From a virus, in IMG/VR virus record IMGVR_UViG_3300025411_000011, positions 37,892-101,891 of that record: a DNA stretch of 64,000 bases. The stretch is one strand, 5' to 3'. The translations under genes were made by a program, and so were the position numbers. This document shows, piece by piece, positions 46,609-61,943 of this stretch. How positions within the stretch are numbered: position 1 is the stretch's first letter; each line of letters begins with the position of its first letter. The notes beneath the pieces are model-generated. The model made no database searches. It saw only the letters and a list, made by a program, of their open reading frames with translations, and was not told the DNA's origin.

Positions 46609-48120
46609 TTAAGCGTTATCTAGTGTTACTGAAACGTTAGCGGTCGGAGTTGTTAAATTCCATTGTGCCGCTTGTCCAGTAGTAAACTGTGTACCTGAAA
46701 TTGGAGTTAAGTATGCCTTACGGTTTGTTAACTTAGATACAGCATAGATACCACCAGCACTGTCAGTAGCAATGATTGCCATTTGACCTGAAGTCAAACT
46801 GCTTTCAGCAACTGCTGTTAGCCTGCACAATGTACCTGGGAATGTACCACCTTGTTGGATAACACGGAATGTACGTGAACCTTCTTGTTTGATGATGTCA
46901 CAATCGGTATACAATGTTCCGCCAATGTTGGCGTTAGCAATAATCTGCTCGTAACGTCCTGTGTAACCACTTGTTACTTGAGCGGCTAATGTAGCTGTAG
47001 CTGTAGCTGAACCAGAACTTAATGTTACAACTGGAGTGTAACCAGCGATTGTTACAGAATCACTTACAGTATAAGTGAATGTCAAACCAGTTGATGTTGA
47101 ACCACCAACTGTTACAGTACCTGTACCGGCAAGAGCACCTGCTAGTGATGTACTTAATGTAACTGCTGTAGTTGTTGGAGCAACTGCTGAGCTAACATAA
47201 TATGTTGTACCGCTTGTTACACCTGTTAAGTTACCACTTAGTGTACCTGTTACTGCAATCGCTGTTCCTACTGGAAGAGCTGTTGTAGTTGCTGTATATG
47301 TTAACTGACCGGCTGTTTGGCTAACTGCGGCCAATGCGGCACTGTTAGGTTGTGATGTTGTTGATGCGGCTGTACCAACACCTGCGCCAGTAACTGAAGT
47401 ACTTACTGTAACTACTTTAGTTGCTGTGTTAGCAGTTTTGATATAGTAAGCTGTACTACCTGTTAACCCACCGATTGATTGGCTTGGTGTAAATTTCATA
47501 CCAACAATCATTTCATCAATCGAACTAACTGTAATGTTACCACTACCGTCAGTTGCTGTGATGCTCATAGTCTTAGTATCTGCAGAATCTAAATAACCAT
47601 CACCACCGTTGTTAGTTAATGAATAACTTGTAATTGTGAATGATGTTAGTGTGAATGTAGCGGCCGATGTAAATGTACTACCAACTGCCGTTAAAGCTGT
47701 TGCACCTGATGTTGCGCCAGTCCATGTACCGCCAGAAGTTACTGAGTTAACTGTTGTAATAACGCCAGAACCGTTTGTTGTAACGTTCAATACTGCTGTA
47801 CCACCGCCTTGAGCACTTGTACCAGTTACTGAAACTGTAAATGTACTTGATGCTGGATAACCTGTACCACCACTTGTTATGCTTGCGGCTGCGGCTGTTA
47901 AAACTGCAACTGCCGTAGCTTGTACACCGTTAGCAAGTTGTGGACCAAAGATTGATAAACTTGGAGCACCAGATGTATAACCTGTTAGTGTACCGCCTGT
48001 TGCAAGACTTGCAATATTTGAACCACCAATGCCGGCATCAACTGCGGCAGAGCGGCTATATGTACCTGATGCTGACGCATTACGTGAGCCAAAGTACTTT
48101 TTATTAAGAGGACGTCCCAT
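46609..48120 (-). CDS. Virion structural protein, function unknown
   Basis: 503 residues. N-terminus 'MGRPLNKKYFGSRNASASG', then Gly/Thr/Ser-rich repeats including 'GGTGYPASSTFTVSVTGTS'. The C-terminal ~110 residues are better conserved in appearance: 'YTDCDIIKQEGSRTFRVIQQ', 'GGIYAVSKLTNRKAYLTP'. I recognise the type (structural proteins near gp23 in marine T4-like phages) but not a specific function. A long leader with its own late promoter, and an AAGGAG site, suggest strong independent expression. Confidence 0.65.
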   Translation of the reverse strand: MGRPLNKKYFGSRNASASGTYSRSAAVDAGIGGSNIASLATGGTLTGYTSGAPSLSIFGPQLANGVQATAVAVLTAAAASITSGGTGYPASSTFTVSVTGTSAQGGGTAVLNVTTNGSGVITTVNSVTSGGTWTGATSGATALTAVGSTFTSAATFTLTSFTITSYSLTNNGGDGYLDSADTKTMSITATDGSGNITVSSIDEMIVGMKFTPSQSIGGLTGSTAYYIKTANTATKVVTVSTSVTGAGVGTAASTTSQPNSAALAAVSQTAGQLTYTATTTALPVGTAIAVTGTLSGNLTGVTSGTTYYVSSAVAPTTTAVTLSTSLAGALAGTGTVTVGGSTSTGLTFTYTVSDSVTIAGYTPVVTLSSGSATATATLAAQVTSGYTGRYEQIIANANIGGTLYTDCDIIKQEGSRTFRVIQQGGTFPGTLCRLTAVAESSLTSGQMAIIATDSAGGIYAVSKLTNRKAYLTPISGTQFTTGQAAQWNLTTPTANVSVTLDNA

Positions 48121-48218
48121 TTTGTTTTCTCCTTATGAAAAACACGGCGTTCTAGGCCGTACGCAGTTGGATTTCTGCATAAAACTCACCCCATGTGAGT
48201 TGTTACTATGTATTTATG
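48121..48218 (-). promoter_or_regulatory. Late promoter CATAAATA and structured leader of the 503-residue gene
   Basis: The late box CATAAATA is at 48211-48218 (minus), overlapping the previous stop codon; predicted start ~48205. A 7-bp stem AACTCAC / GTGAGTT (48183-48201) lies within the first ~25 bases of the RNA, and a second small stem ACGGC / GCCGT lies nearer the gene. AAGGAG precedes the ATG at 48120. Confidence 0.6.
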
Positions 48219-57032: not shown

Positions 57033-57857
57033 ATGGCAGAAAACAACCCTTTACAGCAATACTTTAGACAACCAAAAATATTTGTAGATTTACCTTCTAA
57101 AGGGATCTATAATAAGCCCGGTTCTTTAAACAAACACAGTAATCTAGCTGTATATGGATTAACCGGCATGGATGAAATCATTTTAAAGACACCTGATGCT
57201 TTACTGTCAGGCGAAGCAATTACACGAACTGTTAAAAGTTGTTGTCCAGATATTACAGATCCTTATGAATTACCCAGTATGGATATAGAAATGCTAGTGG
57301 TGGCTATTAGAGTAGCAACCTATGGCAATAGTATATCACTGACCCATACATGTAAAAAATGTCAATCAGAAAATGATTATGATGCAGATTTAGGAATTAT
57401 TTTAGAACATTATAAACATGCGTCATTCTCTAACAAAATCAAAGAAGATGAAATTGTTATAAATGTAAGACCGTTATCATACAAAGAATCAAACAAATTC
57501 AACATAGAAACTTTTAACCTTCAAAGAAGATTATTTCAAATAAACAATGTTCCAGAAGCTGATCAAGAAGGATTCTTGCGTGAAATATATGAATCGCTTG
57601 GAGTAATACAAACAAACATGATGTTTGAAAGCATTGAAAGCATTGAATTACCTGACACTGTGGTAGTTGAAAGAGAATTCATTAAAGAATTTGTAGAGAA
57701 ATGTGACCGAGCTGTTTTTCAATCACTTAAAACACAGTTTGAAAATAATATTAAAAATATGAAGTATCCAGATATTGATATAGTTTGCTCTTCTTGCGAT
57801 ACAGCTGACAAAATTTTATTGGAGTTAAATCAGACAAATTTTTTCGTTGGCGCCTAA
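57033..57857 (+). CDS. gp26: Baseplate hub protein gp26
   Basis: 274 residues (T4 gp26 is 208). Part of the baseplate hub assembly pathway. 'NPLQQYFRQPKIFVDLPSKG', 'TGMDEIILKTPDALLSGEAI', 'SCCPDITDPYELPSMDIEML' and 'VVAIRVATYGNSISL' are diagnostic of the T4 baseplate gp26 family. 'CKKCQSENDYDADLG' (~res 108-122) and 'CSSCDTADK' (~res 251-259) form a likely four-Cys zinc site. It starts with a perfect late promoter and CAGGAG site. A small coupled gene follows after 5 bases. Confidence 0.88.
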   Translation: MAENNPLQQYFRQPKIFVDLPSKGIYNKPGSLNKHSNLAVYGLTGMDEIILKTPDALLSGEAITRTVKSCCPDITDPYELPSMDIEMLVVAIRVATYGNSISLTHTCKKCQSENDYDADLGIILEHYKHASFSNKIKEDEIVINVRPLSYKESNKFNIETFNLQRRLFQINNVPEADQEGFLREIYESLGVIQTNMMFESIESIELPDTVVVEREFIKEFVEKCDRAVFQSLKTQFENNIKNMKYPDIDIVCSSCDTADKILLELNQTNFFVGA

Positions 57858-57862
57858 CAAAG

Positions 57863-58078
57863 ATGACTAACGAAGATATTAAAGATTATCTTGTTAGGCT
57901 AGAAAAAGAAGTTTTAGATTTTAAAGAAGAATTATTTAGAATAAGTTGGTTCATGCGTGGTGGAGTGAATATAAACGATTTATTTCACACGTACAGTCAT
58001 GAAGATATCAAGTTGATTTCAGAAATAATTAAGGGTAATACAGAAGCTACTAAGAATTCAGGCCTGCCACTGATTTAA
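57863..58078 (+). CDS. Small hub/tape-measure assembly protein
   Basis: 71 residues: 'LEKEVLDFKEELFRISWFMR', 'GGVNINDLFHTYSHEDI', 'IIKGNTEATKNSGLPLI'. Small proteins of this pattern (acidic helix, WxMRGG, KxTGLP end) follow gp26 in T4-like phages. They are thought to be hub or tape measure assembly factors, similar in role to T4 gp51. That role is inference here. Its last 4 bases overlap the convergent gene at 58075. Confidence 0.6.
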   Translation: MTNEDIKDYLVRLEKEVLDFKEELFRISWFMRGGVNINDLFHTYSHEDIKLISEIIKGNTEATKNSGLPLI

Positions 58079-58959
58079 TTCTTTTGCCAAGGATTTCCGT
58101 ATTTTTTAGCAAACGCATTGTCTGATGTATAGTTGGCAGGATCATGTAATAGTTTATCCGTGTCAAGACCATTGCCCGAAGCTGAAGTAGCGTTGATTGA
58201 TGCATTAGGAGTTGAACTGCCAGCTGTAGTATCTTTACTGTTAGAACTTGTGGCATCTACACCCAATGCTGTGCCAGCAGTGCCTGCCAAACCGTTAAGT
58301 TTGTTTGAAATTTTATCGCCGATATCGCCAGGTCCTAATTTCTTATCGTATCCAGCTTGGCCTTTGCTACTTAAGTCTTTTAGTTTGCCAGCAAATGTGC
58401 CTGGTCCTAAATCCCATAATACTTTTACACCTGGATCGACCAAGTGTAGTACAACATAGGCCACGCATTGTTGACCTTCTTTGGTAGCTAGCCATTTTTG
58501 CAAATACAATGCCGCGGCTTCTTGAGCCAACAATAAAGCAATACTTTCTGGAGCAAGTATGCCCCCGGTAAAAATACCAGCGGCAGTTCCAACTACGCCA
58601 GTTGCAATTCTACCAACTAAAAATATTCTAAAGAAAAATTGAATAACACGCAGTATAGCACCGCTTGCTATCATAGACACCACCATCTTTTCAGCTTCAA
58701 GACGCATGGCCACAGGATAGTCTTCTTTTTCTAGCTCTCCAGCTTGAATCATCTTTTCAATGACCATTCTGTGTTGCATGAACTGATAGATAAAAGTGGC
58801 AAGATTCAAATACTTGATGATTTTTAAATAACCACCAAGAACTTTTTCTGTTTTAAGTGTAACAGCTTTGCCGGAAATAGGTGTAGTACTGGCAAATTTA
58901 TCAATAGCTGCCAATATACTACTGCCAGTTCCTTCTGAGATTATTTCATAAACTTTCAT
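58075..58959 (-). CDS. Protein with hydrophobic segments, probably virion-associated
   Basis: 294 residues. The N-terminus 'MKVYEIISEGTGSSILAAID' is a short tag common on marine T4-like phage proteins. Two or three hydrophobic stretches follow: 'MIASGAILRVIQFFFRIFLV', 'IATGVVGTAAGIFTGG', 'SIALLLAQEAAALYL', separated by short loops. A Ser/Thr/Asn-rich tail ends the protein. It could be an internal head or pilot protein that enters a membrane, or a membrane protein made late. It has its own late promoter and an AGGAAT ribosome site. Not recognised as a T4 gene. Confidence 0.55.
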   Translation of the reverse strand: MKVYEIISEGTGSSILAAIDKFASTTPISGKAVTLKTEKVLGGYLKIIKYLNLATFIYQFMQHRMVIEKMIQAGELEKEDYPVAMRLEAEKMVVSMIASGAILRVIQFFFRIFLVGRIATGVVGTAAGIFTGGILAPESIALLLAQEAAALYLQKWLATKEGQQCVAYVVLHLVDPGVKVLWDLGPGTFAGKLKDLSSKGQAGYDKKLGPGDIGDKISNKLNGLAGTAGTALGVDATSSNSKDTTAGSSTPNASINATSASGNGLDTDKLLHDPANYTSDNAFAKKYGNPWQKN

Positions 58960-58985: not shown

Positions 58986-59446
58986 AAGTCATTTAAGAAG
59001 AACTTGCGTTCTTCTATTCTTCGCTTTCGCTCGAACTATTAAGGATTAGTTAACAACACTTATAACGCGAAGCGTTTAAGATATTATCCAGATCGTTCAG
59101 TCACACTTTGCCCTGGCGGGCAAAATGACAAACATTATCCGAGTCGAACATGCTCACTCTTACGTTTTGGCATGGCGGTCATCCGGTACCACGAGCCAAG
59201 TCTTTATATGACGGCAGTCTAATAAACAACGTAAAACGTTTATTAAACCCGAGGTTTCTCTCCTCTCTTTTAGCCTGTAAAATATATTTTCTTGCTGATC
59301 AAACGGGTTTATTCATAGGCATATCCCATCCGCGTCCTGTAAAGGATAGTGATCCAGCTACTCTGCGCCAAGCAGAGATTCCTTGCCGCCACACATCAGA
59401 GCGGATTCAGGGCACAATACTATCGCCTGTGCGGGCTTATTTGGCG
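58986..59446. other. Structured non-coding spacer
   Basis: About 460 bases without a credible gene, and visibly richer in G+C than the flanks. It holds strong inverted repeats: 58996-59015 (8-bp AGAAGAAC/GTTCTTCT; loop GCAA on the minus strand, a GNRA tetraloop), 59107-59124 (7-bp TTTGCCC/GGGCAAA), 59220-59245 (8-bp TAATAAAC/GTTTATTA) and 59360-59376 (6-bp CTCTGC/GCAGAG). None is followed by a clear T run. No tRNA cloverleaf was found. It separates the late structural genes from the gp46-47-55 unit. It could encode a small RNA or hold a replication or regulatory site; neither is shown. Confidence 0.55.
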
Positions 59447-59890
59447 TTATTTTGCCTGGTTTTCTTGAAGTTTGCGAATATGCGAACCATGTACACGCAC
59501 TTGAATATGACCATTATAATAGTCATTTGATTCTAAAACTCTGCGTGAAAATTGTTCTCTAGCCTCTATATAACTGCATTCTGCCTTGCTTCGACAGAGA
59601 AACAGTATCTCTCTTGTAAAATTTTCTGTGCCTAATGCCGTAACATCCTTGCTTAATTCTGGGCTTGAACCATAATATTCCCGCCAGTCTGAGTCAATTT
59701 TGCTACGAATTTTCTTTTTTTTCTTGTTGCCGTTCTTTAATTTTACTGTCTTGTATGTGGTTTTTGAGAATTTAGCTAGTTTTTTGCCTATGTACATGCG
59801 ACCGTTAGTAGTGTTTGTTATGATATAAACAAATCCTATACAGTCTTCTGGTAGTGTTTCTATTGGTTGAGATTGATAAGTCCAAGACAT
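59447..59890 (-). CDS. GIY-YIG family nuclease-like protein
   Basis: 147 residues. 'GFVYIITNTTNGRMYIGKK' (~res 19-37) is the GIY-YIG core in the form VYI...MYIG. 'YYGSSPEL' and 'FTREILFLCRSKAECSYIEA' follow, with the expected Arg and Glu of the catalytic fold. A Lys-rich loop ('KNGNKKKKKIRSK') may bind DNA. GIY-YIG proteins in T4-like phages include homing endonucleases, but this one is short and lacks an obvious DNA-recognition tail. It is the last gene of the gp55-47-46 run. No clear Shine-Dalgarno sequence is seen. Confidence 0.78.
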   Translation of the reverse strand: MSWTYQSQPIETLPEDCIGFVYIITNTTNGRMYIGKKLAKFSKTTYKTVKLKNGNKKKKKIRSKIDSDWREYYGSSPELSKDVTALGTENFTREILFLCRSKAECSYIEAREQFSRRVLESNDYYNGHIQVRVHGSHIRKLQENQAK

Positions 59891-59902
59891 TAACTATGTA
59901 GT

Positions 59903-60172
59903 TTATTCGGACTCACCCTCCCCTGCCTTTTGATTTGCCTTGCGTTCTGCCTTGTTTTTATCTAACCATACGCGATACTGTTGCACATGTTCCCTGCGTT
60001 CCCGGGCAATAATGCGTATTTGTGCCAGCCAGTATCGCATGTTTTCCCCAGCACGACGAGTCCCACGAGCTTGCCATTTTTGATTTTCTTTAAAGTATTC
60101 CTTAAAAGCATGCATCAAACGCTCATGTGACTCTTCATTTTGATAGGGACTGGGTTCTACGTGTCTACTCAT
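59903..60172 (-). CDS. Small basic helical protein, function unknown
   Basis: 89 residues: 'SRHVEPSPYQNEESHERLMH', 'KENQKWQARGTRRAG', 'RYWLAQIRIIARERREHVQQ', ending in a Lys/Glu tail. Helical, basic in the middle, not recognised as a T4 gene. It overlaps the 3' end of gp46 by 8 bases, so it is translationally coupled and may act with the recombination nuclease (inference). Confidence 0.6.
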   Translation of the reverse strand: MSRHVEPSPYQNEESHERLMHAFKEYFKENQKWQARGTRRAGENMRYWLAQIRIIARERREHVQQYRVWLDKNKAERKANQKAGEGESE

Positions 60173-61943
60173 GTATCTCTAAATCGTTTGCATAGCTGGT
60201 AAAACCGTTTTCTTTGATAACTCTCAGTACATTGTTTACACGGCCTATCAGCTCTTCCTTGTGACTGATCAAGAATATGTTTTTCTTGCGTTCACGACCC
60301 ATCTTTTTCAGTATGCCCAGGGCACCTTCTACTCCTGAAGGATCTAGTCCGTTGTCTATGAGCTCGTCAACAAACAGCAAATTAATACTTTGATATAGAC
60401 TTTCCCATACATCACGGAAAGCCCACGACAAGCCCAGTATGAGTCTATTGCGTTCGCCTCGACTTAGATTATCAAAATCTAAATCTTGCCCCAGCTGTGT
60501 GATTAAGACCGTCAAGTCGTTTTGGAATGTAACTGTGTGTGGTAACCCCAGCTTGTCCAAGTAATAGGTCAAGCGATTGTTTAAGTATGCTAGGTTTTGA
60601 TCTATAATCTTTTTGCGAATAAATGAATCTTTTGATGTCAGCAATTTCAACAAGAACTCTTGATGATCCTTCAAGCGAGTCAGCTCATTGACCAAGTCCC
60701 AAGAAATTTCCTGCATGGCAGTCATACGCAGTTCTTCAATTTGCTCTTGATACGGATCAGTTTCACCCGCTTTGATAGTCAACTGTGTTTCAAGAGTTTT
60801 TAAGTTGTTTTGATGTTTAAGAGTCTGCTCCACGCTGTCATAGTACGTTGAAGGACGTTGAGTCAGCTCACCCAGGGTAGCAATTTCGGCTTGTATTTTT
60901 GACAAATCCTTAGTGACCTTGTCGAAATACTTTCGGGCCTCGTCAAGGTGCCCTTGTGCTGTTGATGTCATTTCTTCATGCTTGTGATCATGTAGCTCTT
61001 GTTCACATGCGTGACAGGTCTTGTTAGCCAACTTGACGAGCTCGCCGTCGTACTTCGTGACGCTTCGCTCCGCTTGTGCTATCGCACTTTCGAGCGTTGC
61101 ACGCTCTTTATTTAGGCTTTTCAGCTTCGCTGACTTCTCGTCATACACTTTGAGCTCCGCATGCTTCGCAAGCTCAGCGTCGATATCTACGTCCTCTAAT
61201 TCGACAATGGCTCTGCCCATCTTTTCTAGCTCTTGAGTATGTTGATTACCCCAAGCCATTTGTTTGGTTAGCAAACTATCAATACTTAATTGTATTTTTT
61301 CGTTGCTTTTCTTTGTAGCTTCGAGATTGGCAGTCTCTTGTGTAATAGCATCTTTAGTTTCTTTAACTTGTTCTTTAAGAGTTTCTGCTTTTTCACTTAG
61401 TAATGTAATACCCAACAACTGTTCAATGATAGCACGTTGGTCGTTAGCCCGCATACTTAAGAAAGGTTCTGTATAAGTGTTAAGAGCAACAATATGTTTG
61501 AACATATCGTGGCTCATGCCCAGCAAGTCATCTAAGTCCTTCTGGGTTTCACGCATATCTCCTTGAGCATCGTCTGTTTCGTCTGTTTCTTGCTCTTGGT
61601 CATCAATAAAAAACTTTAATATGTTAGGTTTACGCCCACGTTCTATACGATAGAGAACACCATTTTTTTCAAATGTAAGTGTAACCAACATACCTTTGGC
61701 GTTAATCTTATTGATAAGATTATCTTTTTTAATGTTAGTGAGTGCAATACCGTAAAGTGCATAACTTAAAGCATTTACAATGGTTGTCTTACCTGTACCG
61801 TTACGACTTCCGCTATCATCACCGCCTTGATCTAAATTCTCACCTAATACGAGTGTTAAATTTTCTTTACCAAAGTCTACAGCTTGAGTCTGGTTGCCCA
61901 CACTCATGAAGTTACGTACTGTTAGTTCTTTTATTATAATCAT
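60165..61943 (-). CDS. gp46: Recombination nuclease ATPase subunit gp46 (Rad50-like)
   Basis: 592 residues (T4 gp46 is 560). With gp47 it resects DNA ends for recombination-dependent replication and takes part in host DNA breakdown. Walker A 'GSRNGTGKTT' (~res 45-54) follows an extended loop 'LDQGGDDS'. A long coiled coil is interrupted by a CxxC zinc hook ('CHACEQE', ~res 310). The ABC signature 'LSRGERNRLILGLSWAF' and Walker B 'INLLFVDELID' with D-loop 'NGLD' are near residues 495-545. The start overlaps the gp47 stop (ATGA). Confidence 0.95.
   Translation of the reverse strand: MIIIKELTVRNFMSVGNQTQAVDFGKENLTLVLGENLDQGGDDSGSRNGTGKTTIVNALSYALYGIALTNIKKDNLINKINAKGMLVTLTFEKNGVLYRIERGRKPNILKFFIDDQEQETDETDDAQGDMRETQKDLDDLLGMSHDMFKHIVALNTYTEPFLSMRANDQRAIIEQLLGITLLSEKAETLKEQVKETKDAITQETANLEATKKSNEKIQLSIDSLLTKQMAWGNQHTQELEKMGRAIVELEDVDIDAELAKHAELKVYDEKSAKLKSLNKERATLESAIAQAERSVTKYDGELVKLANKTCHACEQELHDHKHEEMTSTAQGHLDEARKYFDKVTKDLSKIQAEIATLGELTQRPSTYYDSVEQTLKHQNNLKTLETQLTIKAGETDPYQEQIEELRMTAMQEISWDLVNELTRLKDHQEFLLKLLTSKDSFIRKKIIDQNLAYLNNRLTYYLDKLGLPHTVTFQNDLTVLITQLGQDLDFDNLSRGERNRLILGLSWAFRDVWESLYQSINLLFVDELIDNGLDPSGVEGALGILKKMGRERKKNIFLISHKEELIGRVNNVLRVIKENGFTSYANDLEIHE

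Follow-up and report, generated by a model that had tools for sequence, protein, structure and literature searches.

What does a virus keep in some 460 nucleotides that are rich in hairpins, slightly richer in GC than the adjoining sequence and devoid of any credible gene? The spacer lies in a window of 64,000 bases, the whole stretch of DNA analyzed here and itself part of a virus record of 101,891 bases. Its neighborhood is T4-like, with portal and baseplate-hub genes, gp46- and gp47-like recombination genes, a late sigma factor and a SegE-type endonuclease, and by the gp46 protein the closest named relatives are jumbo phages such as PA5oct (∼50% identity). Directly 5' of the spacer is the SegE-type GIY-YIG endonuclease gene segE (59447–59890, minus strand; PF19835, E = 1e-34), followed by a gp46-like (SbcC-like) gene that serves as synteny anchor (60165–61943, minus strand; phrog_77, E = 2.1e-102). 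The next gene 3' of the spacer is a 294-aa ORF (58075–58959, minus strand). A baseplate-hub gene (57033–57857, plus strand; PF12322) and a 71-aa ORF (57863–58078, plus strand) run towards it.

A preliminary description of the spacer, which placed it at positions 58986–59446, had called its composition unlike its surroundings and found no credible gene. In 250-base windows its GC content rises to 0.46 versus ∼0.36 on both sides, but values of up to 0.50 occur in the gp46 gene close by, and the compositional difference is thus mild and a weak argument. The absence of a gene is borne out: the ORFs that span the spacer are frames that overlap one another, and conservation tracks the RNA pairs. ARAGORN detected no tmRNA gene in the window. 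A group I intron was considered and rejected, as the window has no RF00028 match and the flanking segE gene and 294-aa ORF are whole.

Polynucleobacter-1 is the 5' third of a large structured RNA

A cmscan search of the whole window against Rfam, a check that the preliminary description had proposed, returned two matches. The first assigns minus-strand positions 59437–59292 to RF01718 (Polynucleobacter-1) with 69.5 bits against a gathering cut-off of 37; the alignment spans the full model (1–141), and the E-value is 1.1e-12 for the whole window. The second is a freshwater-2 RNA (RF02980, 75 bits) at 48118–48200 (minus strand), located directly before a 503-aa ORF (46609–48120). The entry for Polynucleobacter-1 in the 2010 list describes a probable RNA from Burkholderiales and from fresh water or estuary, marked 'y' for probably cis-regulatory (Weinberg et al. 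2010, PMC2864571), and this was the only report on RF01718 that we found in the open-access literature.

Of 50 viral records selected through their gp46 gene, 41 contain RF01718, as do 29 of 50 in a mixed set; among 50 selected through a short RNA pattern, 19 score above cut-off. None of these sets was drawn at random, and fragments make up many of the records. The model matched none of nine named phage records, nor any of seven bacterial genomes, and a blastn search with the window RNA and that of its relative L249 gave no match among 50,697 phage records.

Aligning the downstream flanks of 63 of 77 loci (the distant L242, L245, L247 and L277 and loci with <330 nt downstream were left out) revealed that conservation goes on for ∼320 nt past RF01718, up to a last hairpin, and a first consensus fold from 59 sequences contained many covarying helices. 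From the conservation and covariation of 145 viral sequences and of a 64-sequence alignment, we delimit a structured RNA of ∼460 nt on the minus strand (58991–59447), from first helix to last hairpin; the analysis of the 145 sequences also uncovered mutually crossing helices and hence pseudoknots. These sequences were taken from 177 unique cores, after removal of short flanks and of eleven bacterial loci that matched by chance. The ends given for the RNA are the limits of conservation and agree with the boundaries given earlier to within a few bases. In the window and in most relatives, the 5' third of the RNA matches the full RF01718 model above cut-off, whereas ∼300–320 nt more, with covarying pseudoknots and two matching core segments, lie outside it. 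The model covers only the 5' third of the RNA.

The 5' domain (59292–59437, minus strand) corresponds to RF01718 positions 1–141. The first helix starts at the segE stop codon: it is a long-range helix (59447–59443 with ∼59373–59369) formed inside the loop of a hairpin (59375–59373/59362–59360), and together they make up a pseudoknot at 59369–59447 (covarying helices 1, 2 and 6). At 59412–59436, a hairpin (59432–59428/59416–59412) is crossed by a second helix (59436–59435/59426–59425), with 96.9 and 97.2% of cells paired (helices 3 and 4). Further along the minus strand, a hairpin (59248–59238/59228–59217) pairs its loop region (59236–59229) with 59165–59159, giving another pseudoknot at 59159–59248 (helices 11 and 12). 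It encloses a pseudoknotted domain at 59168–59212 (59212–59208/59182–59178, 59198–59195/59171–59168, and 59192–59188 with ∼59177–59176; helices 13–15), which carries the near-invariant sequence GGTAC.GG...ACCGCC. Towards the 3' end, a GC-GAAA-GC hairpin (59023–59030; helix 17, 98.4% paired) lies in a conserved GAGCGnnAGCGAA box, and the last hairpin, AGAAGAAC-GCAA-GTTCTTCT (58996–59015; helix 18, 95.5% paired), has double changes at all 8 pairs and marks the 3' limit of conservation. As it lacks a T run, it is not a standard intrinsic terminator. The hairpin richness first noted for this spacer is therefore real: a program search returned inverted repeats at 59217–59248 (11-nt arms, 91%) and 59104–59127 (10-nt arms, 90%), conservation adds the 8 pairs at 59015–58996 and the hairpin at 59030–59023, and the latter is the GNRA loop already described for the minus strand.

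To quantify the fold, we scored 79 pairs, including those in mutually crossing helices, in 64 relatives drawn from 113 diverse rows chosen out of the 145. Standard pairs occupy 93.4% of the cells, compared with 76.9% in shuffled and 34–42% in slid versions, and none of 500 shuffles reached the real level. Changes on both sides are found in 820 cells (219 shuffled, 79–150 slid) and affect 67 of the 79 pairs, and the covariation score is 0.493 (0.192 shuffled, 0.055–0.087 slid). Since the sequences from which the structure was derived overlap with this set, it has an advantage over its slid versions; the size of the gap goes far beyond that. Two helices had been removed before this count, a doubtful one (184–186/208–210) and one that competed with a strong hairpin (295–297/400–402). 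Columns 305 and 403 behave as a possible base triple on hairpin pair 389–403. In a hairpin of the form TATCC..GGACG, alignment columns 174 and 186 swap T/C for C/T, neither as an identity nor as a standard pair, in 142 of 144 rows. Around position 59175, the window RNA lacks six bases (CTGTAA) of the near-identical contig L024, by mutation or assembly error. Frequent G-U pairs on the minus strand agree with an RNA of that strand.

Comparison with related phages, the second check proposed at the outset, thus reveals strong conservation, with covariation that greatly exceeds both the shuffled and the slid controls, and we have very little doubt that the spacer encodes a large conserved structured RNA. 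Of the readings first put forward, that of a small RNA comes closest: it is a conserved structured RNA, but a large one (∼460 nt) and in part already known as RF01718.

Two cores in the 3' domain covary by identity

The 3' part of the RNA contains two copies of a core of 7–8 nt, one on either side of a hairpin. In the window, copy 1 (59132–59146, minus strand) reads CGA-CTC-GGATAAT-GT, the hairpin (59106–59126, minus strand; helix 16) reads TTTGCCC...GGGCAAA, and copy 2 (59081–59095, minus strand) reads CGA-TCT-GGATAAT-AT. The core is identical and the preceding triplet is different (exact matches). In general form, copy 1 is nXACTCxyATzAwG and copy 2 is nXATCTxyATzAwA. The core columns, at constant offset, covary by identity and not by complementarity: the two copies agree in 139 of 140 rows at position x, in 138 at y, 137 at z, 136 at w and 113 at X, and at position 368/418 T with A is tolerated in 22 of 140 rows. 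Among the 97 column pairs at least 10 apart and with a score of at least 9, 45 are complementary, and the twin-core pairs rank as the top five among those that covary by identity.

We mapped the core changes onto a tree built without the core columns from 140 of the 145 rows. Position x has 29 changes per copy, of which 28 are shared by the two copies in both branch and kind. The four other core positions show concerted changes in 10 of 11–12, 13 of 14–16, 11 of 13 and 20 of 26–38 cases, and Watson-Crick control pairs on the same tree give similar concerted rates. The CTC and TCT triplets are nearly changeless and never converge, save for two rows at one position. Single positions are homogenized but the copies as a whole are not, and we rejected gene conversion as the cause of core identity since these neighboring boxes remain different. 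Intermediates with unlike cores are almost absent, suggesting that the cores are linked in function, be it through a symmetric protein, a shared strand or each other. A partner in cis was also rejected: no third column covaries with the cores from ∼−2.7 to +0.7 kb (77 of 82 rows), and core complements are not enriched in the RNA itself. One viral RNA (L295, row L295_p_8516) has lost copy 1 and the hairpin and has kept copy 2.

The identity rule extends to bacterial homologues

RF01718 reaches its cut-off in 1 of 399 genomes from the family of a Variovorax record, in 1 of 10 genomes from the genus of that match and in 4 of 399 genomes from its order, with one more below; these matches overlap and come from five genomes in all. 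One of the contigs is very short (4.8 kb), and another is a single 1.95-Mb contig. All five loci follow the same plan, in which a divergent DUF6641-type gene adjoins the RNA (one is assigned by Pfam PF20346, and all five align with other DUF6641 proteins). Their downstream genes differ, and segE is not found alongside.

The bacterial RNAs obey the identity rule with other core sequences. A strict search recovered twin cores in four of the five loci (ATCGAAAG, AACAAAAG, AGCGAAA and GGCGAAAG), and the fifth has the core AGCGATG with CTC/CCT flanks. In 19 loci picked by DUF6641 only, five carry twin cores (AGATGAA, AAATGA, AAATCAA, AGTAAATGA and AGTAAATG), two of them on the other strand, where they were noticed in what had been intended as a control scan. 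Shuffled 510-nt RNAs yield such a core pair at a rate of 0.0002. The scan covered 24 loci, and a 25th, the short L456, was scanned separately; L450, in which the repeat resembles coding sequence, and L459 were rejected as twin-core loci. The other 14 of the 19 loci are without twin cores, and some of these seem, by eye, to keep the RNA. Together with the loss in L295, this indicates that the core pair is not indispensable everywhere. A broad range of T4-like freshwater viruses share the RNA with scattered Burkholderiales-type bacteria.

Five DUF6641 proteins had no match in PADLOC, a predicted structure (pLDDT 84.9) returned no PDB fold at E ≤0.001, and we found no mention of DUF6641 in the open-access literature. 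None of 35 phage records contains DUF6641, so that a protein partner shared with bacteria is not evident. A 106-aa ORF lies between the DUF6641 gene and the RNA (L440 1709–2029, L455 2439–2759, L458 2467–2787 (−)); it has relatives in seven loci in all and no convincing Pfam match. A group I intron is found near a DUF6641 gene in L441 (752–965, minus strand).

Could the cores act as DNA and not as RNA? Tyrosine recombinases need an overlap of 6–8 bp that is identical between two sites and otherwise varies freely. The twin cores would suit such an enzyme, or a similar strand exchange. Of 22 bacterial loci, 9 place a compact integrase-like ORF close to the DUF6641 gene; both of two tested are Pfam Phage_integrase proteins, and their loci also carry twin-core RNA. 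However, PF00589 is absent from 34 viral records, most of them fragments, in a search that was positive in 14 of 14 controls. The spacing of the cores (47–61 nt, one 74) has no helical period and is short for excision. The L295 virus kept copy 2 whole when the segment was lost, and the ends of that segment are thus not the cores. The common G-U pairs again fit RNA. We consider strand exchange at the cores unlikely, and the replication or recombination site of the preliminary description gains no support in the phages; in the bacterial loci with integrases, the cores may act as recombination sites.

The cores could also belong to a trans-acting antisense RNA, both pairing with the same mRNA target while wobble absorbs the CTC/TCT difference. 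All fixed differences between the copies are transitions (C/T three times, G/A once), which a single partner strand could accommodate through G-U pairs. Yet we found no covarying partner within ∼3 kb or in the RNA, and in the 2.0-Mb bacterial genome G918 the complement of the 15-mer is found only in the RNA gene and at one site with 1 mismatch (reversed control, 5 and 3). Matches in the window occur at chance number (32 versus 30.5 expected); the one close antisense match, at 2300–2314, was set aside as being at chance level and, by eye, probably coding sequence. An antisense function thus appears improbable to us.

The RNA follows segE but is not tied to one downstream gene

Among unique phage loci, 136 of 142 have segE upstream of the RNA and in its orientation, 105 of 120 have gp46 upstream, and 96 of 112 have a convergent hub gene downstream. 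Because the RNA sits alike beside segE and gp46 in most relatives, the recent import once suggested for the spacer is not supported for this lineage.

This constant association, the start of the first helix at the segE stop codon and a window scan in which we found no convincing promoter would all be in line with a structured 3' UTR that merely stabilizes or regulates the segE message. Against this, the segE stop codon is at least 750 nt away in three loci, the bacterial homologues occur without segE alongside, and the elaborate fold and twin cores seem to exceed what a stabilizer needs. We judge a 3' UTR function of this kind to be rather unlikely.

The spacer had also been described, only in part correctly, as the meeting point of convergent late and early units. 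In the window both flanking genes are on the minus strand and the convergent hub side begins at 58078, but in 29 of the 146 loci that extend far enough downstream, the nearest recognized gene is convergent and ends ≤150 nt from the estimated 3' end of the RNA. Those loci offer no space for a downstream gene that the RNA could regulate, and an RNA with convergent genes at its 3' end cannot in general be a 5' leader. A cis-regulatory leader, already disfavored, is accordingly very improbable: the 2010 table (PMC2864571) carries a 'y' for it and the same-strand 294-aa ORF begins 36 nt after the last hairpin in the window, but we recognized that gene in no more than 4 of the 112 loci that reach far enough downstream, the genes downstream of the five bacterial RF01718 loci differ, and the label does not fit this phage-borne RNA.

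A proposed free-standing RNA with one partner for both cores

We think that the RNA probably stands alone and is not the leader of the next gene. In view of the window scan, which gave no convincing promoter or terminator, we infer stand-alone expression from genomic context. Synthesis of the RNA would accompany or follow that of the segE operon, with read-through from segE as our simplest guess for how it is made. Its 5' and middle domains may build a pseudoknotted scaffold, with the 3' domain holding the two cores, which must remain identical, on either side of the hairpin. Both cores would engage the same partner simultaneously, in a geometry set by the hairpin, and one core could change only if the other changed in the same way. 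We lean towards this reading, a free-standing minus-strand RNA of ∼460 nt in which both cores must engage one same partner, as somewhat better than an even choice. Such a partner could be a protein with two-fold symmetry; the other core is a less likely candidate. In the latter case, the cores would touch directly in a short parallel same-base helix (A-A, G-G, U-U, C-C), a self-matching lock that we regard as quite a long shot.

Other structured RNAs offer partial parallels. HEARO-type and omega RNAs are structured RNAs beside nucleases. The spacer RNA likewise adjoins a nuclease gene, but the nuclease class differs (here GIY-YIG), there is no Rfam match, and the bacterial copies have no nuclease; a guide role finds no support here. 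GOLLD, ROOL and OLE are longer than the spacer RNA. Like it, they are large, ornate, pseudoknotted and non-coding, but the window has no Rfam match to any of them, and the abstract of a study on them (PMC12286853) does not mention twin-core identity.

Jumbo phages of the Rak2/GAP32 type have gaps of 600–800 nt near gp46 and the baseplate hub (L396 6380–7175 in phage CBB; L397–L403 and relatives). Like the spacer, these gaps are long, conserved and unannotated or filled with doubtful small ORFs, and most of those fetched have the gp46 ... baseplate hub neighborhood. They contain a TATAATA-like box and invariant blocks, and 34 phage records match. The CBB gap has no profile similarity to the spacer RNA and no Rfam match. 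Long unannotated, structured-looking gaps are found in the same place in PA5oct (L393 7867–8531) and Phosso (L394 7410–8425).

The size of the RNA, its phage setting, the twin cores and the bacterial gene neighbor were not found in print in the open-access literature. What was catalogued as a family in 2010, on the basis of a fragment, is the front third of a large RNA, and covariation tools that seek complementarity would not report its identity-kept stretches as structure. Should the two cores touch, covariation by identity would join the signatures of RNA structure as a new one, and the RNA that starts with Polynucleobacter-1 would be the first in which a same-base lock is known. If instead both cores serve one partner, the identity rule offers a route to finding it. 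Through its bacterial copies, which adjoin DUF6641 genes, the RNA would become testable in the laboratory.
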